Notes under the pieces: model-generated
What the model saw: the letters and a program-made list of their open reading frames with translations, nothing else
Databases searched by the model: none
What the model was told of the DNA's origin: nothing
Program-made: the position numbers and the translations under genes
From: Asterochloris sp. CNOR1
Taxonomy: Eukaryota; Chlorophyta; Trebouxiophyceae; Trebouxiales; Trebouxiaceae
DNA: 64,000 nucleotides
Direction: 5' to 3'
NCBI GenBank assembly: GCA_963969365.1
Contig: OZ017747.1
Coordinates: 3,162,001 to 3,226,000, forward strand
Shown here: positions 12,702-52,369 of the stretch, piece after piece
Numbering within the stretch: position 1 is the first letter of the stretch
Layout of the letters: every line of letters begins with the position of its first letter

Positions 12702-13285
12702 TGCTTCACACAGCCTGATATCTGATGCACGCATGTGGCTGCTTTCCCTGGAAAGCAAAAGTCATCACTGCTGCAGTACAGCGCTGCATGGGCATGCAGC
12801 CCTGCATATCTCCAGTATGAGGTGACGTCTGACCGGATGGCGGCGGCACGGGTTCAGCAAGTCCTGCCGTGACAACCCAGTATGAACTGCCGTGGCCCCA
12901 TGATGCGAATTCCATTGGTGATGCACACGCCCTTGCGTGCTAACATCTCAGGTGCTGATGTCAATGTTTAACTCTGACCTGCCATGCCATCGATGACATC
13001 ATCGCATCCCGTCGATAGAGCTGCACGTTGATGGGCCAAGCCCCATCTTTGGAGAGTGACTACACTGACCAGGACGTTAGCTGGCATGCAAGCCTCTGAT
13101 CATTGTTCACCGCCTCTTTCATTACCTTTGCCTCCCACCACATAACGCCATTGCTTGCCCTGCAGGGGCTGCACAGCTAGCAAGCTCCGAACACAGGTGT
13201 GAAAGTGGTGCTTTGGTGACAAGAAAGCACATTTTGTTTGGCGGGCAGGGGAGCACAGACCTCTCACCAGCCTGATCCTGTGCAG
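12702..13285. other. Spacer between the two tandem kinases
   Basis: Contains the 3' UTR of kinase 1, the promoter of kinase 2 and its unlocated first exon. Two Met-Gly starts fit: 12788-12814 (MGMQPCISP, phase 0 into the next exon) and 13030 (MGQAPSLE, needing a poor acceptor). Neither is decisive. Confidence 0.4.
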
Positions 13286-26031: not shown

Positions 26032-26544
26032 CTTGTGGCTGAGCACCGACCTGGGTGGCAACGGCAGGCAGACAGCGTCAGGACGGGGGGATGTGGCCGC
26101 TTGCAAGGCAGTACGCTCTTTCAGAGCACTGCTTCTGTTGGCCAAATCGCATGGGCAGGGCTTGTATGCTGGCAACACAGGGTGGAGGAGGAGGCATCAC
26201 ATATGAACTGCAGGCTGCCGGGTGGGAGCAGGGCAAAAGTGCACATGCTTCAGGTGTCAAACTGATGGGGGCCATACAATGATGTACCTGTACCCTGGGC
26301 ATGCAAGTGCGCCGCATATCACAGGGCATCATCTCTTCAATACAGGTCAGCAGCAGTACAGTCATTGCAGGGCCGCTCCTGAAGATGCAAGATGGGGCCC
26401 ACCTGCGTGCCGGGTCCACAGCGCGCCTTCGCAATGGCGGCTGACAATTCCAAACAAAATCTCCGAGACGGCTTGAAGTTTGACCATGAATTCAAGGTAA
26501 TCTGAAATGGTGGGCATGCATCATTCATTCAAGCTAACATGTGC
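26032..26544. other. Intergenic region between bZIP and PEX5
   Basis: About 510 bases between two genes transcribed leftwards. It should hold the PEX5 3' UTR and the bZIP promoter. No clear signal seen. Confidence 0.35.
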
Positions 26545-29500: not shown

Positions 29501-29830
29501 CTGCAGCAGGCAACAGCCTCAGGTGAGGGCAACTCGTACAGTGAAGAGGTTGGAGCAGACATCTCCCAACGATCTGAACAGCTCACCAGGCATCGTGTGC
29601 CTGGCAAGCATCTCAGCTCGGGTGCGGACCCGCTGGTTATCCGCAGAGGCTGCGCTGTGCAGGCCTTGCTGTGCGCTGAGCCCAGCCAAGCCTTGATGGA
29701 CCATCTGCTCTCCATGTTTGTTCCTGTGGGTGAGCAAACTGGAGGCCAAGGCACCCAGAGGATTGCCATTGCTGGCAGCCACTCCGTCAGGTGCACAACC
29801 TTGCCCTGCAACGAGATCTCTCAGGCTCAT
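26545..29830 (-). CDS. PEX5: PEX5-type peroxisomal import receptor with altered PTS1 pocket
   Basis: Eight exons (29587-29830, 29403-29500, 28582-29314, 28151-28341, 27725-27988, 27204-27326, 26846-26993, 26545-26717) sum to exactly 657 codons plus stop, a normal PEX5 length. The start MSLRDLVAGQGCAPDG and NPLGALASSLL match plant PEX5, including the conserved cysteine ubiquitinated during recycling. The middle exon has seven WxxxF docking motifs for PEX14/PEX13: WAAEF, WADEF, WAHDF, WVSEF, WAEEF, WAHDF, WVRQF. The C-terminal half aligns repeat by repeat with the TPR domain and ends ADHHDLEAFRRHF. However, asparagines that grip the PTS1 tripeptide in known PEX5 are replaced: AENE became LQAE, TNE became AAAG, WNKLGATxAN became LAQLGHVLLKM, and the last NLGISxxN became GLGCAIGA. 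Cycling cytosol-peroxisome receptor; cargo may be unusual. Confidence 0.88.
28443..28460. repeat. Short TG microsatellite
   Basis: An imperfect run of about eight TG dinucleotides within a PEX5 intron. No function implied. Confidence 0.8.
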
Positions 29831-30027: not shown

Positions 30028-33000
30028 ATGCAGCGATCTGAAAACCAGGCAAGTCAGGCTGATCCAGGGACGCTTCTTTTTTGGTGTGAGTGACTGGCTG
30101 GCTGGCATGCACGCAGGAGGGTTCTCTGCCTGGGACCCCAGATGAAAGCAGTGATGCAGAGCTGGGTGGTCAGCCAGTGCTGCTGAGGAACATCAGGCCG
30201 CGATATGAGCGGCCAGATGAGCCTGAGGTGGTGCAGCCTCAGAGAAATGTGTCCAGGCAGAACCCCACAGTTGCCAAAGCAGCCAGCAGGGACACAGAAC
30301 AGACTGCTGCCGCTCCCAAGAGGTACACACCTCTACCCAATTGACTGAATGGCCTGCATAGTGTCATGCTTCATCTGCAAGCCTGCATTGCCTGATCTGA
30401 GGTGCTTTGCAGGCCCAGTGCGCACGCAGCCCCTGCTGCTGCGCAAACGCGTTCACGGGCGTCCCGTGTAAAGTCAGAGCGTCCTGGGCAGCGATGGGGG
30501 CAGAGGCTGTCAGGCCTGCCCTGGCGGTGCATTGGCAAGTGGGGCCTCCTGGTGCGTCCTGCAGCACCAGACACCCTGGTCATGCCTGAGGCCGTGAGTG
30601 AATGTGGTGAACTCCTGACGCACGGCATGGATCCAGGGAGGCATGAAGCCCCCATTCTTGCAGCACGCTGTGGCTGGTGCTGGCCCAGAGGACAAGCATG
30701 GAATGCTGCCTCACATTGATGCCTGCTTTGCCCTGTAGGCCCTAGGAGCGCTGCTGGTGCTGGTGATCCATGCCGGACTCATTCTGGCTGCTGCCATGTG
30801 GCTGACATCTTTTCGCAACCACATGGCCACCAGCTCAGACCACCTGGACATCAGCTCGGTCCTGGAAGTGTATGGCAGCCCCAGCACCTCCAACCCTGTC
30901 CAGTTTCTAAAGTCAGGGCAAGTGCTGGCTGCACACTATGCAAGGGCGGCCACACTCACACAGCTTCACAACTAGGTGCTTGGTGCCTTCACTGAACTGC
31001 TTCACGGAGGCGCTATGGTGTGCAGCTGCGTGCCCTCAAAGACTGCGTCACTCAACTGTGCTGGACTGCGCATGAGCCAAAAAGTGCCTCACAACAAGGT
31101 GTCGTGGTGTGCTGGGTTGCAGGCAGGCAGCAGCTCCCGTGGCACACGTGCGCCTGGCCTCCCACTCAGCGAGCAGCGCAGCAACCAGGGAGGGCGATGA
31201 GATCTTGTCTTTCGGCAGGCAAGCCCCAGGATGCTGTTTTGCCTGTTTTGCGCCAGGCTGCGCCACTTGCACTGCTTCCAAGGCACCATGCTGGTGCAAC
31301 CAGCATGCCACCATTTGGCAGCCTGTCTAGAGGAGCCCACAGTCGCTTGAGCAGACGTGCGCCGTTGGAGCTTGGTTGCTCTGTATCTGCCCAAACCGAG
31401 GACGTGCAACCTTGCCGTGCAGCTATGTGGATCGGGCGTTTGTACCCCATGGCCAGTTGCATGCACAGCCTGGTGGTCTGCTCAGCATAGACAGCAAGCA
31501 GCTGGCCCTCGCCCAGCAGGGTGGCAACCTCACCTTCGGATCAGGTGAGCTTAATCCCTATCCTGCATACACATGCATGTGGCATGTGCAGCACCAGTGG
31601 AGGGGTGCTCGCCAGGATTAGCTGACGACTGTGGCCTCAATGCAGTGCAACAATCAGTCAACCTCAGCGTATACGGCCTTCTGACAGTGTATGCTCAGCC
31701 ATTTGCTGAGGCCTCAGCCACACCCTCCTCTGCCCAGACAAGTACCAGAAAGCTTCTGCAGAATGGTGGGTGATACATTCTGCTGTGCTAAATGTGGCTG
31801 TCTGGCCCCAAGGCTCACACAGCACGGTGACTGGCCATGCAGTGAACTCTACAGTTGTGAGCACAACCAGCGCCCTTTCACCCAACTCCTCCGGCCTGGT
31901 GGGGGTGCGCATCCAGGGCAATGGGCTGGACGACACAGTCATGCAGATAGATGCAGGCAGCTCCACGGTGGGCAAAACGCCTTGCTTGGGCTTTTTAAGA
32001 GCTAAGGCACCTCACACAATCACAGCATGTCTCTGATGCTGGCGCGCTGTATCTGCTGCTCAAAAGTAAATCAGACTGCCACTCATATCAAGCAGAACGT
32101 GGAGGCCTGCAAAGTCGACTGACGCACTTGCGACCTAAAGCACTCTTTGGACCCAACCAAATGTCTGCTGCTGCACTCTCAAATGGAAGCACCCTATGAC
32201 CTGCCACTGCAGAACTCAGCAGGTATCCAGCTAGGGCCACCAGCCAACCCAGTCACCCTTTACAGCCTGGAGGGAGGCTCCCAGGTCCTACTGGCGCAGG
32301 GCAACTCCTCCATTCTCAGTGTGACCCCAACCACCACAATTTTATCCGGGACAGGGGTCAGCAACACCTCCATTGTGCTTGGCCCACCCAATGATGCAGG
32401 CGCCTCCATCAGTCTGAATGGAGGTGAGACACTAGCATGACTCGGCCTGTCTGCACTTCCGCAGGGACTGCAACACAACAAAGTTCCTGCTTGCATGGCT
32501 TTGACTAAGCCAGTGACCACAAAGAGAAGGGGAAAGCTGCTGTGCAGGCGCAGCTGGCATTGAGCTGATCTCAGCAACCACAGTGAACATCACTGGCAAC
32601 CTGCGCCTGGGCCTGCCTGGCAACCAGACCTCGGAGGCAGGGAACAGCAGCATCACACAATTTTACGGCAGTGTCTTGTGAGTCAGCATGCTGCATGCGC
32701 CTCTGTTGGCACCTTCTCCACCTGTGTGCCATTCTGAGACCAGATTAACTGCTTGCACTGCAGCTTCCATGGCTCCACCTCCATCACCGGCATCATCCAA
32801 AACCTGATTCCTTTTCGACTTGGAGGCGCAGCCAGCACTGGACAGACCACCAACATGTGAGGCGCTCTGACCTGAGCAGACTTGCTTGCTCTAAGCCCAC
32901 AGACCCACTCTGAGCAGATAAGGCCTGCACCACATCGGCACCCAGCAAGCCCACCTGGCTGGCGCTTTCCGAAAAGGTGTCCTCGTATATCCTGCAGCCT

Positions 33001-36000
33001 GGTCACAGGACCAACACAAAACAACACCATCGCGCTGCCAGACAGCAGCGGAACCGTGGCCGTGGCGGCAGCACAGCCTCTGGCCCTGGCTGACAACGGC
33101 ACGCTCAGCATCAACCCCGCCCTCCTTACTGACGTGGGAGCCATTAAGAGCGGCAGCATTGTCCCAGGTCTGCCATTACTGCAGAGGTTCCTGCTGCTTT
33201 GCTGCCTCCCTGAGAATGGCCTGGAGTTTGTGTCGACAGCCTGCCATGCTGCTTGGATGCTTGTCTGCAGACTGCTGCTATTCGATGCAGGGTTTGGCCC
33301 AATCGACCTTGGCTCCAGCAATCTGACAGCAGGCAGCGCTGACCTTCAGAACACCACAACTGGGCAGCTCACTGTGCTGGGCCCGACTCAGCTGGGCACA
33401 GGGGGTGAGAATGCCTCCCTGCAAGTCACTGCGCCGTCCACCTTCCAGGGACAGGTGCAGCTGCAGGGCACCCTGCATGCCCAGCGCGGCGTGGTGCTGG
33501 GCAGCACCGTCAGCGACAACATGACTGTGGCAGCCTCAGCGTTCTTCCTCAGCCCGCTGCGCGCTCAGGGGAGCCTGACAGTGGCAGGCAATGCCACCAT
33601 AGGCACCGAGCCCGCCAACCTGCTGCTCATCAATGCTACAGTGCTGGCGATCGCCCCCATCACAGCAGCCCAGCTCACAGCAGCCCAGCTCACGGTGCAG
33701 GGCAGCACAGTGCTGGGCACTGCTGGCAGCAACTCAACTCTCGCTGTGGCTTCCCCAGCCACCTTCCAGGGCGCTGTCCAGCTGCAGGAGCAGTTGATTG
33801 CCCACAAGGGAGCAGCGCTGGGCAGCTCAGCAGCGGACAGTCTCCAAGTGGCAGCCTCAGCCACCTTCCTGAGCCCTGTGGTGGCTGACAGCCTATTCAC
33901 AGCTGCTGGCAGCGCCCAGTTGGGCAGCAATGACAGCAGCCTGCTGCAGGTCAATGCCACTCTGGTGGTCACTGGGCCAGCCACAATGGGCCAGCTGACT
34001 GTGCTGGGCAACACAGTGCTGGGAGCTGCCGGCGGCAACGCTTCACTCACGGTGGCTGCACCAGCAGCCTTCCAGTCGGGAGCTCAGATGCAGGGCCCAG
34101 TCACACTGGGCTCCAGCAACAGCTCCCGCAACAGCACCAGCCTCGCAGTCAATGCACCTCTGGTGACCATTGGCGCCAGCAGGAGCGACAGCTTGGTGGT
34201 CAACTCCACCAGCAACTTTAGCTCAATTGTGCTGCTGCAAGACGCGCTAGCAGTCGCGGGGCCTGCAGGCTTCAAAGCGTTGAATGCCTCTGGACTTGCC
34301 ACCTTCTCAGGTGAGGCCAACATGTTTGGGCCTGAGGCTGTCAATCGCTGAGGGTCCTTTGTGGTCCAGCCTGTCTTGCATGCTTATGTTTCAGTGGCAG
34401 TCTTTGGCTGGGGTGCTGTCGTGTTGTCACGTGAAGGTTTCACAGTGGCAGCTGCTTGTAGCGGCCCTGGGTGGCACGCTGGTGGGCCTTGCTGCTGCAG
34501 GTGGCTTGGCAGTGTTTGGAGGTGCTACCGTAGGCACTGGAAGCAACAGCAGTGCAGACTTCACAATCTATACAAGCTCCCAGATTGGCGCAAATGGGAC
34601 AAGCAGCCCCCTTCTCGTCAATTCACCATCCACCTTTGCAGGCACGTCCCCCCATTGATCAGTTTAGGGCAATTCACACTGGACATGGCAGCGGCCTCTC
34701 AGATAACATTTCCATTTGCAGGTGCCATGAGTGTCAAGTCTCCAGCAGTCTTCAGTAGCACAGTAAATTACACCGGCAACGTCACAATTGGCCTGAACAG
34801 CAGCACAATGCTGAATGTGTATAGGTATGTTTGAGTTGCACATGGCAGTCTCCAGACTTGCCGCTTCCAGCTGTAAGCAGATCAACTCTCCTGTTGCCTG
34901 CAGTCAGGTTCACTTCCTGGCTCCTATTGTCACCACTACCATTCAGAATACAGTCATCAACACCACCAGCCTCAGCCTCAGCGGCAACTTGGAGGTGGAC
35001 GGCAGCAGCAGGATAGGCAACGTCAGTACCAGCTCCCTGACAGTGCTGGCAACCTCCAGCTTTCAGGCCCCTGTTGCCATTGGGGCCACCTTAGCGGTGG
35101 GCGGTGCTCTGGCAGCTGAGGCAGCAGCGTCTGTTGCAGGCTTGCTCACAGCTGCAGGGGGCCTCTCTGTGACTGGAGGCAGCACTGCCATTGGAGGCAC
35201 GGGGCTGGCTGTTGCTCCGGCAGCCACCTTCAGCAGCTCCGTGGGGATCAGCGGCACCCTCACAGCACAGGGAAACGTCTCCCTTGGTGTCAGCAGCAGT
35301 AACAGCTTGACTGTGGCTGCAACAGCAGCCCTACAGGCTCCAGTGCTGGCCAGCAGCACGCTGGGAGTTGGGGGTCTGCTCACAGCCTCAGGTGGCCTGA
35401 CTGCAGCAGGCGCCACGCTGATCCAGGGCACCAGCCTGGCTGTCAGCAGCCCAGCAAGCTTCACCAGCACCACCAATGTGTCAGGGAGCTTCATTGCCGC
35501 CAGCAGCGTCTTCCTAGGCTCCACAAGATCAAGCTTGCTCACTGTGAATGCAACCGCTGCATTCACGTCGCCAGTCAGCATGTCTGGTGAGTTCATGAGG
35601 GTCCGCGATCAAGCACTTCCACATGTGCTAGCGCTGGGTCGTCTTGCTTGCCTCCTACCCGTCAGGCACGACGCAGCCTGCAGGCCTGCCATTTCATGCA
35701 GATGCCTTTGTGGCAAACGGGACATCAACTTTTGGAATGGGGCCTGCCAGCGCTGCAGCCTTCACTGTCTACAGCGCTGCCCAAGTGGGCACGCCGGGCA
35801 CCTCCAATGCACTTGTCATCAATGCGCCGACCACTCAGGCCGGGGCACTGGCTGTCTCTGGCTCAGCCACACTCACAGGTGACGGCAGTATTAGCGTTGC
35901 CAGTCTCACCCTGCATACACAACTAGAGACTCACACTTCAACTTTGTACCCGCAGGGACCACCACAATCGGCACTCCTGGCACCACCACTCCTCTGACAG

Positions 36001-39000
36001 TCAATGCCCCAGCTGGCTTCACCAACAGTTTCTCGGCAACAGGCAAGCCCCATAGGCAAGCTCCTGGTGTTACCCTTGCCCTTGTGAGAGCTTGTCAACT
36101 CATCATCGCCCCATTGCTGCAGGCGAAAACATATTTGGAGCGGGCTCGGGCAGCACTTCTGCGTTCACTGTCTATTCTACTGCACAGTTTGGGCAGAATG
36201 GGTCAGCGTATGCCCTGCTCATCTATTCCCCAACCACACTGGCAGGGGCCCTGTCAGCCGCTGGCGCCAGCTCATTTACTGGCGCGGCAAACTTTACAGG
36301 TGAGTATTCAAAGCAGCGTTTATCTCATGTCGCCTGCTTGACTCACTAGGCAAGAGCACATGCTGCAGGCGCTACAACCGTGGGCACAGCAGGCACCACC
36401 ACAGAGTTCAATGTGAACTCGCCCATGACCCTTACCAATACACTGACAGTCACAGGTGCGGAGTGCTCATTCACAGTCTAGGCCAAGTTGGCAAAGGCAT
36501 GTTGAAGCTCAGCAGCTGTGCCTGGTGACCTCTTGAAAGCCACATGCAGGTGCCAGCACCTTTGGCAGTGGCACTGGCAGTAACGCAGTCTTCACTGTGT
36601 ATTCAACGGTCCAGATTGGACAAGCTGGCACTGCCAACGCCCTCCTCATAAATGCACCAACAACCTTCACAGGCAAGTCAGCTGTACCAGTGCCTGTTAG
36701 GCCTGGTGCCATTATCAAAGCCCTTGCTGGTGCGCAAGCTTGGCCAGAGCAGGCAGAGAGCTGCGCTGCCATGCTGCATGCCTGCATCACACTGCCGTGC
36801 AAAGAGGTTGCCGCTGTGCATCGCCTTGGTGGAGATGAACTGAGCTCATGAATTGAGAGGCACCCTTCTCGTGCAGGCACCACCATAATTGGCTCCACAG
36901 GGACAAGCACAGCCCTGACCGTCAATTGCCCCGCCACCGTCACGGCTTCCTTTAATGCCCAGGGCAGCATCACAACAATTGGAAGCAGCAGCGACAGTCT
37001 TCTCACTGTCAACTCTGTTGCAAACTTCACAGCGCCAGTCCTGCTGCAGAGCAGCCTGACAGCCACCAGCCTCAATCTGTCAGGAGGCCTGACTGTCCAG
37101 GGCAACTCTGTGATGGGCGCCAGCAGCACCAACACCCTGCTGATCCTGGCCGCTGCTGCCGCTGGCAGCAATCTGAGTGTGGCTGGACTGCTCACTGCCT
37201 CAGGCAGCCTGAGAGTCAGTGGCACCTCGACCCTGGCAGGTGACCATGCAGCAGAATGCATGATGAACTCAACGGCAGCCAGTCTGGACAAGTTGGCCTA
37301 CAGCATAGTGCCAAGCGTGCTGAGAAATGAAAGTGCCAGTCTGCAGGTGCTGTGAACATCTCCGGTGGGGGCCTCACGGTGTCCACTGGAGGCATGTCAG
37401 TGACAGGAGCCTCCACCATGGCAGGTGCGCAACACTCCTGCTTTCGGCACATGCTTGTGCCCAGTTCGTCTCTGCTCTCAGCAGGCAGACTGCCAAATAT
37501 GACTCGCTAACAGCACGTGCTCATTGCTGACAAGGCAATTGCCAGAGGGGTCCAAGATCCGACTTTTGAAGCTTTGAGCACTATTGCGCTGCCTGCAGGC
37601 AACCTGGTCGTCAGCCAGCAGATGCAGACCCCGACAGTCAATGGCGTTATTCTGCTGCCTGCAGGCACCACAACCATCTCTACAGGGGGCCTCACAGTCT
37701 CCAGCGGGGGCCTGACTGTGCCTTCGGGAGGTGGCGGCACCAGCGTGCAGGCCTTCGCTGCCGCGGGGGCTGCCACCTTTGCCACCACATCAACCTTCAG
37801 TGGGGCAGTCAACATCTTCAGCGGGGGCCTCACAGTCTCAGCAGGAGGCATCTCTGTGCCATCTGGAGGCGGTACCACCAGCGTGCAGGCCCTGTCGGCA
37901 GCAGGGGCGGCCACCTTCGCCAGCTCTGTTAGTGCCGCAGGGGCAGCCACGTTTGCCAGCACTGCAGCCGTCACCGGCACATTCACAGCCCAGGGCAGCA
38001 CTGTCCTGGGCACGAGCAGCAGCAACACCCTGACTGTTAATGCAGCGACGACCCTGCAAGCTGCTGCAACCGTCGCAGGCCTTCTGACCAGCACAGGCGG
38101 CATCACAGCCACAGGTGAGCCCCAAGTAGGCATTGGTGCTTGCTCGCTTCTGCTCCAGAAAGTTTACCCAAGCGCCCAGGTGCATGTGATAAGAGGTATC
38201 CTGAGAGGTGTCTTCTGTGCAGGCAGCAACACCTTTGGCAGCGGGTCGGGCACCACCACCCCGTTCACTGTGTACAGCGCCGCAACCTTTGGCACCAGCG
38301 GCACCACCAACACCCTCACAATCTACTCACCAACCACTCAAGCAGGCTCTCTGACAGCGACAGGCACTGTCTACTTCTCGGGCAGCCTGACAGCCGCTGG
38401 TGAGTTGGTCACACATGGCAGGTCACTCACCGGGGGGCAGCTATGCGGCCTTGCTGCCCAGCCAACCCTCAAGCTGATCTGCCTGCCATGCTGCATACCA
38501 TCCCCTTGCTATGAACCCTTTGTCTTCAATGCTGTGCTGCCATGGTGCAGGACCAACTGTCATTGGCATTGCTGGCACTGTCGTTGGGCTGACCATCAAC
38601 TCGCCGACGCTGCACTCAAGCTCAGTCAGCATCCAAGACAATACAACCATTGGCACCAGCAGCTCAAATTCGCTGACAGTCAATGCTGTCACCAACTTCA
38701 CGGCACCAGTGCAACTGCAGAGCAGCCTGACAGCTGCCAGCCTGACACTTTCGGGGGGGCTCACAGTACAGGGCAGCACTGTGCTGGGCTCCAACAGCAC
38801 CAACACCCTTGTCATGCTGGCAGCTGCTGCCGCCAGCAGCACACTGTCTGTGGCTGGGCTCCTGACGGCGTCAGGAGGCCTGGCAGTAAGTGGCACCACA
38901 GCTTTGGCAGGTGTGAGCATGGGACATGCTTCCAACTCAGCAGCCATGTATTCAGTGTGCCACATGGCAGCAGCTGGCGATGCTGCAAAGGGTGACTGTG

Positions 39001-42000
39001 CCCCTTGTCAACCTGCAGGTGCTGTCACAGTATCGTCAGGGCTGGCAGTGTCAGCAGGTGGCATCACAGTGGCATCCGGCGGCGGCAGCACCAGCATACA
39101 GGCTTTGTCCGTAGCAGGGGCAGCCACCTTTAGCAGCACTGCAGCCATCACTGGCACGCTCACAGCCAATGGAGCCGCAACTGTTGCAGGCCTCCTGACG
39201 AGCACAAGCGGCATCACAGCAACAGGCGAGGTCGCCTGAGACATCACCATGAAGGGGGCCTGCTGGTTCGAAGTCTGGCATGCCATGCATGGCAAAGGTC
39301 TTCAGGCGGCAGGCAATCACCCCCACACATGTCAAGTGCTGCTGCAGGCAGTAACACCTTTGGCAGCGGGTCTGGCACTACCACACCCTTCACAGTGTAC
39401 AGCGCTGCCACCTTCGGCACCAGCGGCACCACCAACACTCTCACAATCTACTCCCCAACCACTCAGGCAGGATCTCTCGCAGTCACAGGGACCGCCCTCT
39501 TCTTGGGCAGCCTGACAGCCACAGGTGTGCAGCGATGCTCAGCGCGCCGGGTTTTGCGAAGTCGAGCAATCAATGTGGGTCTCCTGCATCAACATTGCCT
39601 TAGCCTTTCAGGTTGCCTCATGGGAGTGACTTGGTGGCCTGCCATTCTGCTTGCAATGGTCTGAAACTCAGTGGCATTTTCATGCAGGCGCCACTGTGAT
39701 TGGCAATGCTGGGACCAGCGTAGGACTCACTGTCAACTCGCCGACACTGCACTCAAGCACGCTGAACGTCCAGTCCAACACCACCATTGGCGCCAGCAGC
39801 TCATATCTTCTGACTGTCAATGCCGTCGCCAACTTCACGGCACCAGTGCTGCTGCAGAGCAGCCTGACCGCCAACAGCCTGACACTCTCAGAGGGCCTCA
39901 CAGTGCAAGGCAACACCGTGCTGGGGTCCAGCAGCAGCAACACTCTTGTCGTTCCGGCAGCTGCTGCCGCCAGCAGCACACTGTCCGTGGCTGGGCTGCT
40001 GACAGCGTCAGGAGGCCTGGCAGTGAGTGGAGGACTGACAGTGTCGGCAGGTGGCATCACAGTGTCTTTGGGCGGAGGCAGCACCAGCGTGCAGGTCTTG
40101 TCAGCTGCAGGGGCAGCCACCTTCGGCAGCACAGTGGGCATTACAGGAGCACTGCAAGCAAGTGGCAATATCAACCTGGGCAGTGGCAGCGGCAATACCC
40201 TCAGTGTGGCATCTACCACAGCTCTGCAGGCCCCCCTGACAGCAGGAAGCACTGTGGCCATCGCTGGTTTGGTCACAGCCTCAGGTGGCATGACCGTGAC
40301 AGGTCAGCCTGACCTCGAGGTCCCTCCCATGACAGAGAAAAGCCATCATGAGTTGCATGCATGGGGTTCAGGGCCAGTGTGAACGGCTGCAGCCAAACAG
40401 GAGCCAACCTGGCTTGACCTTGGTTGCCACTGTGTGTCGTTACTCTGGCTGCAGGGAACACCACCATTGGGATCGCAGGCTCTACCCAACCCCTGAGTAT
40501 CAATTCACCCACCACTATTGCGGCAGCGCTCAATGTACAAGCCAACACAGCCATTGGCGCCAGCAGCTCCGATTTGCTGACAGTCAATGGCATCGCCAAC
40601 TTCACAGCGCCAGTGCTGCTGCAGAGCAGCCTGACAGCCACCAGCCTCAATCTGTCAGGAGGCCTGACTGTGCAGGGCAACACAGTGCTGGGCACCAGCA
40701 GCACCAACACCCTTGTCATCCTGGCAGGCGCTGCCGCCAGCAGCACACTGTCCGTGGCTGGGCTGCTGACAGCGTCAGGAGGCCTGGCAGTGTCAGCAGG
40801 TGGCATCACAGTGGCATCCGGCGGCGGCAGCACCAGCATACAGGCTTTGTCCGTAGCAGGGGCAGCCACCTTTAGCAGCACTGCAGCCATCACCGGCACG
40901 CTCACAGCCAATGGAGCCGCAACTGTTGCAGGCCTCCTGACGAGCACGGGCGGCATCACAGCAACAGGCGAGCCTCACCTGAGACATCACCATGAAGTGT
41001 GCCTGCTTGTTCAAAGTCTTGCATGCCCTGCACGGCAAATCTCTTCAGGAGGCAGGCAATCACCCCCACACGTGTCAAGTGCTGCTGCAGGCAGCAACAC
41101 CTTTGGCAGCGGGTCTGGCACCACCACGCCCTTCACAGTGTACAGCGCTGCCACCTTTGGCACCAGCGGCACCACCAACACTCTCACAATTTACTCTCCA
41201 ACCACTCAGGCAGGATCTCTCGCAGTCACAGGGACCGCCCTCTTCTTAGGCAGCCTGACAGCCACAGGTGCGCAGCGATGCTCAGCGTGCCGGGCTCTGC
41301 GGATTGCAAGTCGAGCAAACAATGTGGGTCTCCTGCATCAGCATTGCCTTAGCCTTTCAGGTTGCCTCATGGGAGCAACTTGAAGGCCTGCCATTCTGCT
41401 TGCAATGGTCTAGATTATCAGTGGAACTTCCATGCAGGTGCCACTGTTATTGGCAATGCCGGGACCAGTGTAGGACTCACCGTCAATTCGCCAACGCTGC
41501 TCTCAAGCACGCTGAACGTGCAATCCAACACAACCATTGGCGCCAGCAGCTCCAATTCGTTGACTGTCAATGCCATCGCCAACTTCACGGCACCAGTGCT
41601 GCTGCAGAGCAGCCTGACCGCCAACAGCCTGACGCTGTCAGGGGGCCTCACAGTGCAGGGCAACACCGTGCTGGGGTCCAGCAGCAGCAACACCCTGGCC
41701 ATTGCTGCTGCTACCACGGCAGCCAGCACATTCACAGTCTCTGGTTTGTTCACTGCCAGCAGCGGCCTGTCAGCGACTGGAGCCTCTGCAATATCAGGTG
41801 GGCAAGTCTGCTGCTGCAGTGATGGCAGGTCAGAGCTGGCAGGGTATATCCTGCCTAGCTGCAGGTGAGCTACAAAGCTGTGAGTCTACCTGGTTGCTGT
41901 CTGCAGGCGCTGTCACTATTTCAGCTGGCGGTCTCACAGTCTCAGCCGGAGGCATCACAGTGCCCACTGGTGGCGGCGGCACCAGCCTGCAGGCCCTGTC

Positions 42001-45000
42001 AGCAGTAGGGGCAGCTTCATTCAGCAGCACATGCAGCGTCACAGGAGCAGCCACCTTTGCCAGCACTGTCGGTGTCTCAGGGGCCCTTACAGCACAGGGC
42101 AATGTTCAGCTGGGGTCCAGCAGCAGCACCACCTTCACTGTGGCCTCAGCCACAAGTCTGCAGGCTGCAGTCACAGCTGCAGCGCTAGTGACTGCAACAG
42201 CAGGCCTCACTGCAACAGGTGAGGCCACCACGCCTCTACATCTTTGCAACCTGGCTGAGGCTGTCCTGCCAGAACACCAAACATGAGGTGAGCCACCTTG
42301 TGCTTTGCTCTCTGGGTCCTGCAACTGCCTGGACGTGTTCGCTGCAGGCACCAACACATTTGGCACTGGGTCTGGCAGCAGCAAACCATTCACAGTGTAT
42401 TCTGCGGCCACCATTGGCGCCAGCGGGACAAGCAATGCGCTGACCATCAACTCCCCCACCACCCAGGCTGGGGCCTTGACTGTGTCAGGAGCAGCCGCCA
42501 TCTCCGGTGCAGCGACCCTTACTGGTGAGACGATGACGGTGCTGGGCATGCCTGGCTCAGGGCGTCCCAAGTTCGGCCCAATGGCTTGCTGTGAGGCTTC
42601 ATTTGGCAGCCTTGTGGCCCTGTCTTGCTTTTGGCAGGTGGAGCAGGCTGCCCACAAAGCTCTCGCCTGCTGTCAGTTCAATGTCAGCACCTTCACAGGC
42701 GTCTTTACTTACTGCAGGCGCCACCACAATTGGAGCGGCAGGGACCAGTGTGAACCTGACGGTCAACTCACCAACAACCCACGTGGGCCTGCTGGTGGCC
42801 CAGTCCAACACCACCATTGGCGCCAGCAGCTCAGACCTTCTGACTGTCAATGCCGTTGCCAACTTCACGGCGCCAGTGCTGCTGCAGGGCGGTCTGACAG
42901 CCACCAGCCTGACTCTCTCGGGGGGCCTTACAGTGCAGGGCGATACATTTCTGGGGTCCAGCAGCAGCCAAACCCTAGCAATCGCAGCGGCAACAACTGC
43001 AGCCAGCACGGTGGCAGTCTCTGGGCTGCTGTCTGCCAATGGAGGCCTGTCTGTGTCTGGCTCTTCAGCCATGGCAGGTGACCCACGCTCCGTGTAGATG
43101 TAATCCGCATCATGCTGGGCACTCATCCTGCTGACCTGGCAGCTTGGACTGCAAAGTGTTGGTCCCTCCTGAGTGAGAAGCCATGATGCAGGTGCTGTGA
43201 CCGTCTCCAGTGGGGGCCTCACAATCTCAGCCGGAGGCCTCACAGTACCCACCGGTGGCGGCAGCACCAGCCTGCAGGCGCTCTCTGTGGCGTCGGCCGG
43301 CACATTTGCCAGCACAGTCACCGTCTCAGGGGCAGCCACCTTTGCCAGCACTGCAGCCGTCACCAGTACACTCACAGCTCAGGGCAGCACTGTCCTGGGC
43401 ACAAGCAGCAGCAACACCCTGACCGTCAATGCAGCGACGACCCTGCAGGCTGCTGCAACCGTTGCAGGCCTTCTGACCAGCACAGGCGGCATCACAGCCA
43501 CAGGCAAGCTTGAAAACTCTGGATATGCGTCCAGACACCAGATGTTGACCTGCAGCCTGATGTTAGGAAGGCATTGAAGGAATGTCACAAACAGCTTCCC
43601 TGCAGGGAGCAACATCTTTGGCAGCGGGTCCAGCAGCACCACGCCCTTCACAGTGTACAGCGCTGCCACCTTTGGCACCAGCGGCACCACTAACACTCTC
43701 ACAGTGTATGCACCAACTACTCAAGCAGGCTCCCTCACAGCCACAGGCACTGTCCTCTTGTCAGGCAGCCTGACAGCAACAGGTGAGTGATTGCCTGACC
43801 TCAGCTCGTATGGAGGTTGATGTAGATCCAAGAGCCGTACAAGCATGCATTCTTCATCGTGAAGCTGCACTGACATGAGCCTCCAGTCTTGGGGCACCCT
43901 ACACGCTGCTGTGCTGCCCTGTTGCAGGTGCCACCATCATTGGCACTGCTGGGACAACTACTGGGCTTACCGTCAACGCACCCACACTGCACTCTGGCAC
44001 AGTCAACATCCAAGCCAACACCACCATCGGCGCCAGCAGCTCCAACATGCTGACAGTCAATGGCGTCACCAATTTCACGGCCCCAGTCCTGCTGCAGAGC
44101 AGCCTGACAGCCACCAGCCTCAATCTGTCAGGAGGGCTGACAGTGCAGGGCGACACAGTTTTGGGGTCCAGCAGCACCAACACACTTGTCGTTCTGGCAG
44201 CTGCTGCCGCCAGCAGCACAATGTCTGTGGGTGGTCTGCTGACCGCCTCAGGTGGCCTGGCAGTCAGCGGGACCTCAGCCCTTGCAGGTGACCAAGCAAT
44301 TTTATGGTTCGTGCTGCGCAGAAGGGGCTCTGGCCTGTCTTGTGTGCAGCAGGGGCTTCAGCCTGTCATCATGCGCCTGTGTTTGGCCTGTCAGCTGTGC
44401 AAGCCCATCAGCAGCCTCTGCCTGACCATGCAGGTGCTGTCGCCATCTCATCTGGGCTGATGGTCTCAGCTGGGGGCCTCACAGTCTCAGCGGGAGGACT
44501 CGTAGTGTCATCCGGCGGTGGCAGCACCAGCCTGCAGGCACTCTCGGTGGCAGGGCAGAGCACCTTTGCCGGCACAACCAGCACCACAGGGGCAGCCACT
44601 TTTGCCAGCACTGCAGCCGTCTCCGGGACACTCACAGCTCAGGGCAATGCTGTCCTGGGCACCAGCAGCAGCAACACCCTGACTGTCAACTCCGCAGCGA
44701 CTCTGCAGGCTGCTGTGTCAGCCAATGGCGCTGTGACCGTGGCAGGCGCCTTGACATCCTCAGGCGGCATCACAGCCACAGGTGGGACCCTCCTGGCCCT
44801 GTCTGGAATGCAAGTGCAGCCTGCTCCCACCTGGTACTCCCTGCCACACTGCTGATCTCCCTGCTCTCACACTGCAGGCACGACCATCTTTGGCAGCGGC
44901 TCTGGGAGCACCACTGCTTTCACAGTGTACAGCGCAGCTACCATGGGAGCCAGCGGCACCACAAACGCCCTCACAGTCAATTCTCCCACAATTTTCACAG

Positions 45001-48000
45001 GTCAGCCAGCAGGGTGTTGCATGGCCAGCCCTGAGCGCATGCACACAGGGCTGTGCCACTCCTGCATGGCATCATGCAGCGAAGCGCTCAAGTGCAAATT
45101 GCAACTTGCTGCACTTCTGCTGCTGGCATCCCCATTCGCTCCTGAGTGTGTCGATGACGCTGTGACACTGGTGTGCCGGGCGGCTGCCAGGCCATGCCTT
45201 GGCAAGCACCCTTCACACTGACCTCCAGACTACAATGCACCTGTTTCCTGCAGGCACCACCACCATCGGCTCCCCAGGAGCCGCCACAGCCCTGACCATC
45301 AACTCGCCAACCATTCTGGCCGCAAACGTGACAGCACAGGCCAGCATCATTCTGGGGAACAGCAGCAGCAATCGCCTGGCTGTGGCGGCCACTGCAGCTT
45401 TTGCAGCCCCTGTGTTGCTCACAGCTGCCCTCACAGGCACCACCGCCACGCTGTCTGGCCTGCTCACTGCAAACTCTGGCCTCTCAGTGACTGGCACATC
45501 AACCCTGGCAGGTGAGTGTAATGTCAAGCGTCATCTGCACTGGCTCATGATCTGTAGTGCCTGGCACATGAGGTACATCCCATGCACAGCACAACACACA
45601 GCAGGGCTGGCCACTTGGGCAGGATTGCTTATGAACCCTGCATTTCGCTGCCTGCAGGCGCAGCAACTGTGTCATCAGGGGGCCTCACTGTCTCCAGTGG
45701 GGGCCTGACCGTGCCTTCGGGAGGTGGCAGCACCAGCGTGCAGGCCTTCTCTGCCGTGGGGCCAGCCACCTTTGCCAGCACATCAACCTTCAGTGGGGCA
45801 GTCAACATCTCCAGCGGGGGCCTCACAGTCTCCAGCGGGGGCCTGACTGTGCCTTCGGGAGGTGGCAGCACCAGCGTGCAGGCCTTCTCTGCCGCGGGGG
45901 CAGCCACCTTTGCCAGCACATCAACCTTCAGTGGGGCAGTTTACATCTCCAGCGGGGGCCTCACAGTCTCAGCAGGAGGCATCTCTGTGCCTTCAGGAGG
46001 TGGCAGCACCAGCGTGCAGGCCTTCTCTGCCGCGGAGGCAGCCACCTTTGCCAGCACATCAACCTTTAGTGGGGCAGTCAACATCTCCAGCGGGGGCCTC
46101 ACTGTCTCAGCAGGAGGCCTCTCTGTGCCTTCGGGAGGTGGCAGCACCAGCGTGCAGGCCCTGTCGGCGGCAGGGGCGGCCACCTTCGCCAGCTCTGTCA
46201 GTGCCGCAGGGCCAGCCACACTGAGCAGCACCCTCAGCACTGCAGGGGCAGCCACCTTCAGCAGCTCACTGGGTGTCACAGGGGCAGCCACCCTCAGCGG
46301 GCAGGTCACTGTCTCCTCAGGGCTGCAGATGACGGCTGTCGTGGCAACCCCAAGCAGTTCAACCACTTACATCCCCTCAGGCGCCAGCATGGTAGATGCA
46401 ACAGCCGCCGGAGCAGGTGCCCCTGCATGCTGCCCTGCCGGCTGCACAACCTTGTCTGCCCTGCATGTGGCTGCCGGCTGTGGTGCCAGCCAGCTGGCCG
46501 CGCTCCACCCCCCTGTGAGCTGCAAGGGGAGGGTCAGAAGGGCCTCCTGGAACTGCTGCAGGGAACACCTTCCTGGTGCTGCCTGCCATCGTCACGGGCT
46601 ACCGCATCATCATCATCACAGGCAAGCCTCACTCACCACACCAGCATATGCCTTGGCTGGGCAGACACAGTCTGACACATCCCTGCGCGTGTGGCCCAGC
46701 ACAAATGCATGCTGTGCTGAAGGTCACACCTGTCATGGCCCAACCCCTGGCACTCGCTTCCCCAGCTGGCTGGCTGCAGCGCAGGGACGGACGGCATGCA
46801 GGTGGTGCAGCCGACCTGGGCCCAGAAGGGGCACTCTGCGCAACTGCAGGCACCAACGGGTTCCAGCTGGCCCCTCGACCCAACACCCCGCTCAACAATG
46901 GCTCCGGAAGCAATGCCGCCACCCCTGTTGCAGCCAACAGCTATGTGGAGTGCACAGGGCTGTCCACCACCAACGGCTGGGTCTGCTTCCAATGGAACAG
47001 CACTGGGAGCACCACATTGGGGCCAGCGTCCGACAGCAACAACACTGGCAAGCGTCGACGCCTAGCCAGTGCATCGCCTGATGAAGGTATGTCGTATATT
47101 GCATGTGATGACAGGTGTCAACAGGCAAGGCTCTGCTCATGGCCCAATCCAGGGACAGCAAGAGAAGGCACTGCTGGTGCATGGCGGTAGGGGTGCCCAG
47201 CATCTTCGCGGGCCCTGACTGTTTGGACATACTGATGCTGTTGCAGGTCTGTTGGTGCAGCCTGCGTGCAGCGAGGGGTTTGCGTCGACTTTGCTTGAAT
47301 GTCATATGCAGGCTTTCCACCAGATGAACCCATGGAAAGCAGCACAGACACACAGGAAGCACATAGTCCTTCCCAGGAAGCAGCAGGCAGCCCAGCATCT
47401 CCGGACCCGCCGCCTCTGCCGCTGCCCAATGTTGGAGGCGGCGGTGGCCTGACACAACACATGATGGTATGACAACTCCACGCTCACACTGGCTGTGCTT
47501 ACGCCACTTGAAGCTGTTGCTGAGCTGCTTTGTGTCCCACACCAAAATTGGCACCTGCTGCAGGCCATGCCTAGCACAGACGCTGGCATTGAGGTGCCAT
47601 CTGGCATCAGCTTGTGTGCCATTCTGGCAGGCACTGCCACACGGTCATATCAGCTCAGAATCGTGGGCCCAGCATCCCCAGGCCAGCTGCTGTACGTCAA
47701 AAATAAGGCGCCTCATGCAACACTGGGCCTGGAGGTGTTACCCGGCCAGGTAGGGTGTGATGCAGCCGGCCTGCTGCATGGGAGGGGCAGCAGCTACTGT
47801 GGCCCATCATTGCCACCAGCACATTTCTGGGGCATGGACATGCAGCTGAGTGGAGATCGTGAGTGCAGCCCAAGGCTGATGCATGCCTGCAGGGCGTCAT
47901 GTTCATGTACCTGGCTGACAGCTGGGCGCCCATCCTTTGAGAGCAGGCTGAGCCGCCATGCTCAGCTTGCCACAGGTTGCTGTCAAAGGAAGCATTAGTG

Positions 48001-48130: not shown

Positions 48131-49753
48131 CACAAACGCCCCTTTGAACGATTTGCTGCATGCACTGGGCCAGCAGGCTGCCATTCAGCCGTCCCTGCTG
48201 CAATTGAGGCAGCCTCCCACCCGCCACCCCCCTCCCCCTCCATCTGACAGCTGCAGATGAAGTCAAGAACATGACACTGCAGCAACTGGGTATGTCAATA
48301 GAAAGCATGACTTAGTGGCAAGCTATCTGGCGGCGTGACTTGATCAGTGATTCTACATTTCCCGGGCAGTAAGTCAGGCCTTTGCTGAGGGATGTCATGA
48401 CGAATATACCGTTACTGCTGTCACTGTGTGTGCCTCATGTACACTGTCTATGGTGGCCTTTGTCATTTCCTGCGGGACGTCATTGTTTCCTATGCCTCCA
48501 GCTGCTGTCACAGGCTGGTGAGGTCCACACAATTCATACCATGATCACTGGTCTTCATGTTTTGGTGAGTACAATGAGCAGGTCTGGGGACACAGAACTT
48601 GGCCCCCAAGCTCTCCTTGCTCATGTTTTTTCTTCTCGTTACATGTTGTCGAACCTGCTATCTATGACCAACTTGATGGGCAAGGACTCTGCGCCACTTG
48701 AGTGTGCCCAACATTTCCCCATGTTGCCGTCATACTCCCAGGTTCTCAGCTCCCAGTCAGAGTCACCACGCACAACAACATGCACTGGTGTTCTTGAACC
48801 TTCTCCAGCTTGGCATTGCCAAGGTCTCCTTCAGATGCCGCACATCATTCTGTGTACAGGAGCCAGTCCCAAGATGGTTCTCACTGCAGTAGGCGCGTGC
48901 TGTGACCACTGCTGGCAGCAGCTGGCACATGTCAGGGGCCGCTTGAGGACCTGATCAGTGGCAGGTAGTTACCCGACCAAAGCAATGATGATGTTGACAT
49001 GCAGGTGTCAGCCTCTCAAGCGGCCTGGCGCTCACCCAACTGTCACTTGCGGACACAGGATTGACTTGCTTGATGGCCCAGCTCCCAGGGTCTGCAGAGT
49101 CAATGAGACGGCGCTCCAGGTCTGCATGGGAGCCTGACCTCCAGTTCTGCCTGCTTGCCACCATATGCACGGCACAGGGTCCATTGGCCCCCCAAGCCCT
49201 TTCCCCTTCCCTGACTCGCCCTCTGGGCCAAAGTCAAAGAGCTGCAGCGCATAAGCATCCTATGTCAGAGATGCCACAAGAAGAGTGCCTTTGCTTCTTC
49301 TGCCACATTGGGGCCACCAGGGGACAAAACAGCCTGTGATACGGAGCCTGCAAAGCTCAGTTTTCTAAGCCATTTGCAGGTCAGTCCAGCTCAGCTTCAC
49401 CAGCATCAAGCCAAATTGGACAGAACCCACAGTAACCTGCTCCAGCAGGTCTACTAGACAGGGCGAAATTAGGTCCAGCGTCACAAAGTTTGAGGTTTTC
49501 CGACTCGACCAGAAGCTTCTGAGTTGATCTGCTCAGCAAGACTACCGCCGGATCTTCAATCACAAGATGACCGCAAAGGTCAGGAGATCCATGCTTCCTT
49601 ACGTCTAGGCCCCACAGACGCAATGCATGCACAGCTGATGGCCCCTGCGTCCACAGATGCAACGCATCGATACAGCTAGTGGCCTCTGCATGGAAACAGC
49701 AACGGCCTCACGTCTACGCCTCACAGATGCAATGCATGCAACACAGCTAGTGC
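48131..49753. other. Region between the giant gene and peroxiredoxin
   Basis: About 1.6 kb. Holds the 3' UTR of the giant gene. Possible extra 3' exons (48254-48293, encoding DEVKNMTLQQLG, and one after 48744) would be in phase if the last intron had a GC donor, but they look like no known domain. The right end is a short direct repeat. Confidence 0.35.
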
Positions 49754-49757
49754 ATGG
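49605..49757. repeat. Threefold direct repeat before peroxiredoxin
   Basis: Three imperfect units contain cacagacgcaatgcatgca, cacagatgcaacgcatcga and cacagatgcaatgcatgca, each followed by an acagct(a/g)(a/g)tg block. They lie just upstream of, and reach, the proposed peroxiredoxin ATG. They could be promoter elements or simple tandem decay. Confidence 0.6.
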
Positions 49758-51923
49758 CTAGCTTCGGTTGCAATCAGTCAGCTCTGGGTTGCAGCATGCC
49801 CCCAGGGGTGCAGCATGGCCCCATCATGAGGCCACACGATGCAATAGCATCCTGGGACCTGCCTGTGCAGGTTGGAGACGCCCTGCCTGATGCCACCCTG
49901 TTTGAGGGAGACCCAAACACAAAAGTCAAGATCAGAGACCTGTTCAAGGGCAAGAAGGGTAAGCCTGGCTGATTTGCAGGCCACTGGAGGCAGCTGCTGC
50001 ATCCTCTGCCCAGGGCCCTGCTGTGCTCAAGCGAGATCCCCACAGCAACATTTAGAGGATAGACTTTCGCAGATTGCCCGATTTGTCATGCACAGTGTTG
50101 AGTCTTTACTTGTGTCTGTAGGCATCCTGTTCGGCGTGCCTGGAGCCTTCACTCCGGGATGCAGCAAGGTGAGGGCGTGTGTGGAGTGGCCGGGGAATCG
50201 CATCTAAGCACCTGCCCGTCATCACAGACCAGATCATCCAGCGACTGTCAGCTTGTCCACCCAGGGAGTGATGCTGCCTTGTGCTGCAAGTCACCACCTG
50301 GCCCAGTGTGTGGAGGCTGACTGCTGCGTAGGCATTCACTTCTGCAGACATAGCTCAGCGCCCTTCCAAAATATTGATAGCTTTTGGATGATGCAGCTGC
50401 TAAATCTTGGCTCCTGTTGCTCATTGCTGCTAGCCTGAACACCGGGGCACTACCTGCCTGTTGTTGTACACCCACCTGCCTTGATGTTGGAGACCCTCTG
50501 TCTCAAAGCCTGCACAAAATCTTGCCTGTCACTGTCTGAAAAGCCCAAGAACCCACAGCTTACAACTCCTGGCCTACACCCCTTTCATTCATCAGATCTG
50601 GCTCTAGCAATTCGCTGCTGCCTGCTGCAGACCCATTTGCCAGGGTATGTGAGCGACAGCGAGAAGTTTAAGAAGCTGGGCGTGGAGGTGGTTGTCTGCG
50701 TGGCTGTGAACGATGCCTTCGTTATGGGTGCCTGGGGCGAGGCCAACCACGCCTCCGGCAAGGTAAGTCGCTGCTGCAAGAGGCTGGTGGAGGCTCTTCT
50801 TATGACTGTTACCCTGGCTGCCTGGGGTGTTGCCAGGCAAACACACGGCATGGTGACCACAGCTGATGGGCTGAACTGCGTCAGGCTGCCAGGCGGAGCT
50901 AATGTTGCGTCAGGGCTCACCTTCCTGATAGCTAGCAGCATGCGCACCATTGGCTGCCAGGTGCAGCGGGCAGTATCAAGGAGCCACCACTGACACTGGG
51001 CTTGGCTGACAAATGCTGACAAAGGGACCATGCACATGGGAGCCGATGTGCATGCTGAGAGATAGCTTGCAGTGACCCTGCCAAGAGGGCTCAGCTCATG
51101 GAGCTTGCTGATGACCCTGCCCAACATTGCAGGTGATCTGTGCCACCTCCCTACAGAAGGCAGATGGCCACCCGCACGCTGCCTGCAAGCTTGTGCTGTG
51201 CCAAGCGACATTCCCTGCCCATGCTGCAGATGAGCCTGCTGGCAGACACTCAGACAGAGCTTGCCTTGTCTCTGCCAAGACAACTTGGGTGAGTGCCATG
51301 AGCTCAGAGATCCTGCCCATTGGTGCAGGTGCGCATGCTGGCAGACACCCAGATGGAGCTGACCAAGGGTCTAGGGCTTACCCTGGACGCTGAGGGCATG
51401 CTGGGCACCAAGCGCTGCAAGCGGTGAGCCTTGCTGCAATGCTGTCAGCGCTTTGCAAAGCAGACACGCAACTTTAGCTTGTTGGCACCGTGCGGTTTTA
51501 ACGGCAAGGCTGTGCCACAGCACCACTGGCAGCTTCACTGGAGACATGTTATGCCAGCACACCTCCACCGGTGGCAGTATCTGGTCAGCTTGCCCGTTTG
51601 AAAGCTTCCTGCATGCAGCACAGCTCTTGCATCGTGCATCTGCCTAACACCAGATTGCTTTCTTGCAACATCCACAAGCAGGCGCGACCCCTCAAATGTG
51701 CAACCTCGGCCTGCAGATTTTCTGCTGTGATTGTTGATAACACCATCAAGTCCCTGAACACGGTGAGGCTCTATAAAGTCGTCACTGCACGACTTGCGGT
51801 TTGTGACACACCCAACAGCATGGCACTGAGTGCCAATGTGTCCCTCTGCAGGAGGCTGATGGCACAGGCCTTACCTGCAGTCTGTCAAACGAGATTGTCA
51901 AGCAGCTGGAGTCTCTAAAATAA
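49754..51923 (+). CDS. Type II peroxiredoxin (PRXII/PRX5 family)
   Basis: Six exons join in phase: 49754-49958, 50122-50168, 50632-50762 (to within a base), 51329-51423, 51717-51762 and 51852-51923 (TAA). It reduces hydrogen peroxide and alkyl hydroperoxides with a thiol cofactor. Evidence: VGDALPDATLFEGDP; VPGAFTPGCSK with the PxxxTxxC active site and peroxidatic cysteine; LPGYVSDSEKFKKLGVEV; VCVAVNDAFVMGAWGE, with the resolving-type cysteine of this subfamily; LTKGLGLTLDAEGMLGTKR; and a short C-terminus. The first exon is open back to an ATG at 49754, giving 35 extra N-terminal residues (MASFGCNQSALG) that could be a weak transit peptide; a shorter cytosolic start is also possible. Converges with kinase 3 on the other strand. 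Confidence 0.9.
51230..51288 (+). pseudogene. Decayed duplicate of a peroxiredoxin exon
   Basis: gcag^atgagcctgctggcaga resembles the true exon start at 51329 (gcag^gtgcgcatgctggcaga), and both continue cac(t/c)cagac/atggagct. The upstream copy has its own donor (cttgg^gtgagt) but is the wrong length and lacks the conserved LTKGLGLTL text, so it is probably skipped. Confidence 0.6.
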
Positions 51924-52369
51924 ATCACAACAATGAGACTGATGCTGCTGGTCTGCACTGCTGTGAAGGTTATGAGGTACATCAGCCGGGGCCTCAAGAG
52001 GCCTATACTCTTCTTCAGGCATGCAGTCTATAATGTTATGGGGGTCTCCATTCCTGAAAAGGGTCTGAAAGATACCATGAGCCGCTTTGTCAGTACTTGG
52101 CATTTCACTCTACTCAGCAACTTTTTGCATGAAATTTGAAGGTTGCATAATAAATTGAGGGGTTTGCCCAAATCAAAAGGAAGGCTAAGGCCTCCTACAA
52201 AAGAGCCTGTCATTCCCTTATGCAGAAGCTAGATAGGCAGTGCCTGCTGAGATACTTCTGGCTGCCAAGGGACATGAATGACTGGCTGGGGAGTCACGTG
52301 CTGCATTTGCTAACTGTGAGACAAGACTGTACACAGATGAGCTGCTGATGGGGATTACCACACCTGCTG
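51924..52369. other. Convergent 3' ends of peroxiredoxin and kinase 3
   Basis: 446 bases between two stop codons. Presumably overlapping or adjacent 3' UTRs. No gene or clear polyadenylation signal recognised. Confidence 0.4.

Follow-up and report, generated by a model that had tools for sequence, protein, structure and literature searches.

How does a gene come to carry a long array of repeated exons that agree in length and reading phase, and is the symmetry of such exons the cause of their multiplication or only a consequence of how they multiplied? This question is raised by a very large gene on the plus strand of a 64,000-nucleotide (nt) stretch of contig OZ017747.1 (positions 3,162,001 to 3,226,000; the whole stretch is referred to as the window), which probably encodes a surface protein and has no convincing family in Pfam or PHROGs. 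Its repeat region is composed of three exon types, A, B and C, following one another in cassettes (cf. Table 1). An earlier note on this DNA had counted seven A exons of 177 nt, four B exons of 360 nt and two C exons of 312 nt, in the order A-B-C and with phase-1 introns throughout, and had seen in them a natural design for generating length or isoform diversity by exon shuffling or alternative splicing. Our analysis points elsewhere: we consider it probable that the gene encodes a membrane-anchored extracellular fibre and that its array has grown by exchange or duplication between codon-aligned repeats located inside the B and C exons. Symmetric exons are often taken as the cause of repeat growth. 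At this locus they may instead be a side effect of homology and of constraint on the fold, and the gene is a compact test case for separating symmetry-driven growth from exon-internal exchange.

The stretch that is inherited together was determined by correlating pairwise distances between exon types across cassettes, with 4-7 copies per test. Whole A and B exons of the same cassette (r = 0.36, p = 0.20) showed no common history, nor did A and C (r = -0.44), and B and C were negatively correlated as well (r = -0.32). The C exon of one cassette followed the A exon of the next, C(n) versus A(n+1), with r = 0.88 (p = 0.003), and the first third of B followed both A(n) (r = 0.92, p = 0.006) and C(n-1) (r = 0.91, p = 0.003). 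The correlation with A was lower in the middle third of B (r = 0.65, p = 0.03) and lower still in its last third (r = 0.24, p = 0.20), which followed neither A(n) nor C(n-1); the first and last thirds of B were unrelated to each other (r = -0.03). Sliding windows placed the loss of linkage between B and C(n-1) at about B positions 90-180 and the loss of linkage with A(n) by positions 241-330, and strong agreement between C and the next A began only near alignment column 136 (five copies). The correlation between the 5' part of B and A held at r 0.85-0.97 when each of six copies was left out in turn, and mosaicism within B was seen in 28 of 105 triplets at a permutation p <= 0.005 and in 58 of 105 at p <= 0.05, the triplets not being independent of each other. 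Since A is linked to the first third of B and not to the last, and C(n) is linked to A(n+1), breakpoints are indicated inside the B and C exons, and the inherited block would start in the middle of C, include A and end in the early part of B. The distance correlations led us to reject the whole-exon A-B-C cassette as the duplication unit, and whole, intron-bounded exons did not behave as such a unit in the few copies available.

The youngest duplication, which contains two introns, has a readable junction (cf. Table 1). Its two copies are 90% identical overall, introns included; by segment, the identity is 98% in the C part, 96% in the A exon, 89% and 90% in the introns, and 89% in the first 269 nt of B. 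The intron comparison is based on local matches and on per-segment identity with stiffer gap costs, as a loose global intron alignment that gave 67-93% identity was discarded when shuffled introns returned a mean of 76% and a maximum of 90%. Both ends of the block fall inside exons. The left end of the second copy is a joint in exon 40455-40967, where the sequence switches from B-like to C-like within 40780-40791 and both sides share the 8-nt CTGGCAGT at 40784-40791: the 60 nt to the left of 40791 match B4 at 57, B9 at 53 and C4 at 28 positions, whereas on the right the adjoining 60 nt agree with C4 at all 60 positions and with B9 at 10. At the right end, the likeness between B5 and B7 stops at about B position 255, beyond which B5 resembles B6 and B7 is nearer to B8 than to B5 (of the informative sites, 43 of 47 agree with B5 to the left of this point and 15 of 20 with B8 to its right; permutation p = 0.0002), although B7 and B8 agree there at only 20-22 of 30 bases. 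On the simplest reading, a single exchange linking a B exon's end to a C exon's start could have produced the duplication and the intron-free fused exon together, with the frame retained because both sides of the joint read in the same codon register. This reading is preferred to a simple intron deletion as the origin of exon 40455-40967, since the two sides of the exon resemble different copies and meet where the youngest block ends; a deletion could still have produced it.

These observations would fit a mechanism in which unequal exchange or duplication between codon-aligned repeats within B and C exons enlarges the array. The moving unit would run from mid-C over A into early B, carrying along the two introns in between, and neither the A-B-C cassette nor a single exon. 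Because the exon repeats are codon-aligned, they would exchange in register, joining homologous coding positions, so that frame and register would be held whatever the intron phase and without any need for symmetric exons. Equal exon lengths would then be common ancestry kept by purifying selection on the fold, and the uniform phase 1 would be inherited from a few ancestral introns, each splitting a glycine codon after threonine, alanine or serine. We infer the exact recombination mechanism from these traces in the DNA.

The divergence between copies agrees with such a history. The ratio of nonsynonymous to synonymous substitution rates (Ka/Ks) was <= 0.31 in 12 of 15 pairs of A exons, those with an estimable Ks (three pairs were saturated), 0.20-0.38 in 10 pairs of B exons and 0.31-0.50 in three pairs of C exons, and the A exons of cassettes 5 and 7 encode identical residues despite 7 differences in 177 bases. 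To judge from these values, most copies are old, and purifying selection has acted on them. The lengths of A and B persist through large synonymous divergence, which argues for a register constraint in the protein, and the equal exon lengths thus appear to reflect shared descent together with that register. The conserved core of B has the lowest synonymous divergence (0.38 versus 0.52, p = 0.005), as exchange within it predicts. With most copy pairs this old, the ages of the copies do not support active diversification at present.

Exon boundaries were taken from a gene model with free intron phase, after which one boundary, that of B8, was set by homology. With these boundaries the counts of 177-, 360- and 312-nt exons given above are reproduced, and the uniform phase holds too: all 25 introns within 35702-46416 are phase 1 and the lengths of all 26 exons are divisible by 3, while intron phases are mixed in the rest of the same gene model. 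Because the exons are homologous copies, this agreement reflects about three ancestral intron positions and not 25 independent ones; every one of the 25 junctions splits a glycine codon, after threonine (17), alanine (7) or serine (1). The A-B-C order stands only in part, as the complete A177-B360-C312 run occurs twice (41091-42218 and 42348-43503) and 13 of the 26 exons, ranging from 78 to 759 nt, have another length: 123 (twice) among A-type exons, 87 (twice), 363 and 258 among B-type, 78, 516, 207, 348 and 759 among C-type, and 615 and 513 in the two fused B+C exons. Moreover, the first 177-nt A exon has six residues added at its start and six missing at its end compared with full-length A exons, and a second gene model takes a different acceptor for it, giving 195 nt; its equal length is apparently a coincidence of shifted boundaries. 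The free-phase model placed the start of B8 at 42688 (390 nt), and we adopted 42718, in agreement both with the alignment of the other B exons and with the choice of that second gene model. The second model also joined B4 and C4 into one 675-nt exon (the 108-nt intron between them reads open in frame) and, by shifting their starts, made C7 354 nt and B10 321 nt long; at these points of disagreement the boundaries backed by homologous copies were retained.

Table 1. Features of the repeat-containing gene and of the duplications within it (positions in the window)
Feature	Position	Strand	Remarks
Whole gene	30028..47472	+	provisional hand-assembled 45-exon model, 3,822 residues, ATG to sole stop at its end
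Predicted single transmembrane segment	30739..30813	+	top 19-residue hydropathy 2.48, residues 138-156
Repeat region	35702..46416	+	26 exons, 25 introns, all phase 1-1; 2,459 residues
First 177-nt A exon	35702-35878	+	register-shifted at both ends
A exons, 177 nt	36123-36299, 38223-38399, 39348-39524, 41091-41267, 42348-42524, 43606-43782	+	
B exon, 363 nt	36877-37239	+	
B exons, 360 nt	38551-38910, 41438-41797, 42718-43077, 43928-44287	+	
C exons, 312 nt	41907-42218, 43192-43503	+	further C-type exons 78-759 nt
Fused B+C exon, 615 nt	39688..40302	+	without B/C intron
Fused B+C exon, 513 nt	40455..40967	+	without B/C intron
Youngest duplicated block, copy 1	39038..39950 (end approximate)	+	C4 from near its start, A5, first ~260 nt of B5, two introns
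Youngest duplicated block, copy 2	40780..41700 (end approximate)	+	left end is the joint in exon 40455-40967
GC-AG intron (example)	43504..43605	+	
Other GC-AG introns of the repeat region	starts 36043, 36673, 39226, 40968	+	
Tandem array of 138 nt (46 codons)	45678..46193	+	in frame, within an exon; 3.7 copies, 92% matches, head to tail

What kind of protein is encoded was examined on the hand-assembled model, which has 44 introns and keeps one open frame through its 45 exons; the automatic second model departs from it at the first exons, at several boundaries and at the 3' end, and the first exons and the 3' end are the least certain portions of the hand-assembled model. A basic stretch precedes its sole strong hydrophobic segment, near the N-terminus, and the product is for this reason probably a type II membrane protein. 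The repeat region is almost devoid of charge, with 7 aspartate, 4 glutamate, 1 lysine and 2 arginine residues (14 in all), and threonine, alanine, serine, glycine, leucine and valine together make up about 82% of it. Its autocorrelation is highest at 283 residues, the length of A+B+C, and then at 46 (the 138-nt unit), 12, 248, 289, 40 and 18, with 6 also raised. Two low-confidence structure models, one with a predicted local distance difference test score (pLDDT) of 55.3 and a predicted template modelling score (pTM) of 0.42, the other with a pLDDT of 55.6 and a pTM of 0.61, both contain short strands that are often about six residues apart, and beta-helix proteins account for many of their weak structure matches, none of which reached an expectation value (E) of 0.001. 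The repeat region is likely a beta-solenoid rod, and the protein probably a cell-surface fibre; we infer the solenoid fold, the surface location and an adhesive or wall role from these properties.

Profile searches gave little to set beside this picture. Bactofilin (PF04519) scored 23.3 and 20.8 bits in the upstream exons 33293-34309 and 34905-35585, below the Pfam cut-off of 27.9 bits, and was not matched by Pfam in the tested A, B+C or 45660-46415 exons. LptD_N (PF03968) reached 30.9 bits against a cut-off of 20.4 over 51 residues of the exon carrying the 138-nt array, a hit that in our judgment probably reflects repetitive beta sequence. For the N- and C-terminal portions Pfam gave no match, the best hit in PHROGs had an E of 0.08, and the best hit of a sequence search against solved structures an E of 0.45. 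A viral or bacterial origin was considered and found little support: the B+C exon had no homology in phage records, and the B profile found no relatives in IMG/VR or genome_contigs in scans keyed on two short conserved peptides. An open reading frame of one IMG/VR contig (L012:4881-5558) carries GGLTVSAGG-type repeats that resemble the C exons, with 39% identity over about 105 residues, a likeness that is probably convergent.

Several points weigh against growth of the array by exon-internal exchange, or at least soften it: (i) the distance tests rely on few copies, are many, and have uncorrected p values; (ii) the linkage of B with A fades gradually, with r = 0.61 and p = 0.01 still at B positions 181-270, and omission of copy 7 brings the correlation between A and the last third of B to r = 0.69 (p = 0.067), which disfavors a clean break; (iii) leaving out single copies keeps the correlation between C and A at r 0.89-0.95 but raises p to as much as 0.25, with 4-5 copies; (iv) several older matches between copies cross an intron, and old exchanges inside introns would have become invisible; (v) the low synonymous divergence of the B core could partly be codon constraint; and (vi) gene conversion and unequal crossing-over are indistinguishable here. 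The splice sites of the repeat region are, furthermore, predictions, and the fibre part of the reading has behind it weak structure models (pLDDT 55 and 56) with no fold match at E <= 0.001.

The same evidence bears on the alternatives. If the array had been built by exon shuffling through phase-1 introns, symmetric exons or A-B-C cassettes would have been copied and dropped whole, with symmetry driving diversification. All 26 exons are indeed symmetric, omitting or copying any one with its intron keeps the frame, the youngest block includes two whole introns, and some older matches extend across an intron, as mentioned; nevertheless, whole A exons share no history with the B or C exons of their own cassette, the breakpoints are located inside B and C exons, and of the 60 matches listed (of 120) many end only a few bases from an exon boundary, leaving little intron homology for recombination. 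We regard shuffling as unlikely: the design argument is right about what the exons permit, and as an account of how the array was built, or of symmetry as the driver of its growth, the comparison of copies does not support it. That the region is no working gene, and is instead a repeat that is decaying or was wrongly assembled, might be suspected from repeats without a convincing known family, and is the least probable reading of all, given that the 45-exon model is open in one frame, that purifying selection acts between copies and that their divergence is graded, the copies not being identical. A better, though still tentative, case, which falls somewhat short of even chances, can be made for present-day length polymorphism residing mainly in the 138-nt array and not in the exon cassettes. 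Its closely matching in-frame units (cf. Table 1) speak for this, as does the greater divergence of most cassette pairs, and it is compatible with growth by exon-internal exchange; the array is the most likely site of such polymorphism.

Diversity could also arise in RNA, if cassettes were skipped by alternative splicing, with GC donors helping, to give fibres of varied length. The exons are frame-neutral, the B4/C4 intron is open in frame, and GC donors occur in 5 of 25 introns of the repeat region and in 10 of 44 of the whole 45-exon model, versus none of the 25 introns in an actin gene and two beta-tubulin genes of this genome, with GT and GC weighted equally (Fisher p = 0.050 and 0.011, respectively). 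The available text of one study states that GC-AG introns make up less than 1% in model organisms (PMC7072748), and that of another that GC donors are enriched in alternatively spliced genes (PMC2490688). The comparison set, however, is a biased one of three housekeeping genes, and duplicated introns are not independent of one another. A rough gene finder predicted 124 introns in the neighboring plus-strand tiles, mostly in unreliable models, and gave 39 of them GC donors, while the one model supported by a Pfam kinase match has them in 2 of 18; the high rate given by the unreliable finder makes GC counts outside the homology-supported repeats doubtful. In addition, all five GC donors of the repeat region carry RAG (R, purine) at +3 to +5, versus 7 of the 20 GT donors, which fits ordinary constitutive GC-AG introns. 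The GC-donor excess is a weak hint of alternative splicing at most, and isoform diversity of this kind is improbable. More speculative still, and very doubtful in our view, is the combined idea that the length of an algal surface fibre is tuned both in DNA, by exchange between codon-aligned exon cores that fuses exons and brings introns with it, and in RNA, by frame-neutral skipping at GC donors, and varies among cells or strains.

As to its setting, the gene appears to be single. The genome searched comprises 56,383,464 bases in 21 contigs, and queries with A, with B and with the upstream repeat, run at E limits of 0.001, 10 and 1, gave 11, 10 and 6 matches, all at the locus, in a search that scores best candidates only and did not use C exons as a separate query; every match reported for the N- and C-terminal queries was likewise inside the gene's own locus. 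The chlorophyll a/b-binding family has 31 exon-level matches in the assembly, which identifies the genome as that of a photosynthetic eukaryote, and the gene is probably a nuclear gene of a green alga. The guanine-cytosine content of the window is 0.54-0.64 in steps of 2 kilobases. Upstream of the gene lie a predicted protein kinase gene (about 8100-12700; Pfam PK_Tyr_Ser-Thr, E 2.9e-31), a second kinase-like gene suggested by rough models (about 12000-19000) and, on the minus strand at about 26500-29700, W-x-x-x-F motifs noted by eye, among them WAEEF, WVSEF and WAHDF, which we take to suggest a PEX5-like peroxisomal receptor. A peroxiredoxin-like gene (Pfam Redoxin, E 1.9e-28) follows just downstream at about 49750-52000, its extent being roughly estimated, and a 103-nt tandem repeat of about two copies (81-92%) occupies 63520-63730.

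Among known systems, the protein recalls bactofilin (PF04519) and other beta-solenoid rods in the spacing of its modelled strands, often about six residues, in its autocorrelation peaks at 6, 12 and 18 and in the sub-threshold Pfam matches of the exons upstream of the repeats; unlike bactofilin, it stays below the curated cut-off, lacks a fold match at E <= 0.001 and shows no bactofilin hit in the tested repeat exons. In the repetition of symmetric phase-1 exons within a presumed extracellular protein, the gene resembles class 1-1 module exons and kringle-type copy-number arrays. In those arrays the module is bounded by introns, whereas here the blocks of inheritance cut across exons. Imprecise intron loss by genomic deletion between direct repeats is described in the available text of PMC3296678, and the joint in exon 40455-40967 is like it in that a short direct repeat connects two exons whose intervening intron is gone, imprecisely; it differs from what is described there in being also the end of a duplicated block, so that a single event may explain both, and in having kept the frame because the repeats are codon-aligned. 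The closest parallel is tandem exon duplication within genes (PMC9013439), where, according to the available text, cell-adhesion terms are enriched among genes rich in tandem duplicated exons. As in that system, homologous exons stand next to each other, flanked by introns of the same phase; unlike what the available text describes, a stretch of several exons has been copied here, with breakpoints inside exons. The gene thus belongs to a known kind, the tandem exon-duplication genes, in this case with exon-internal exchange.

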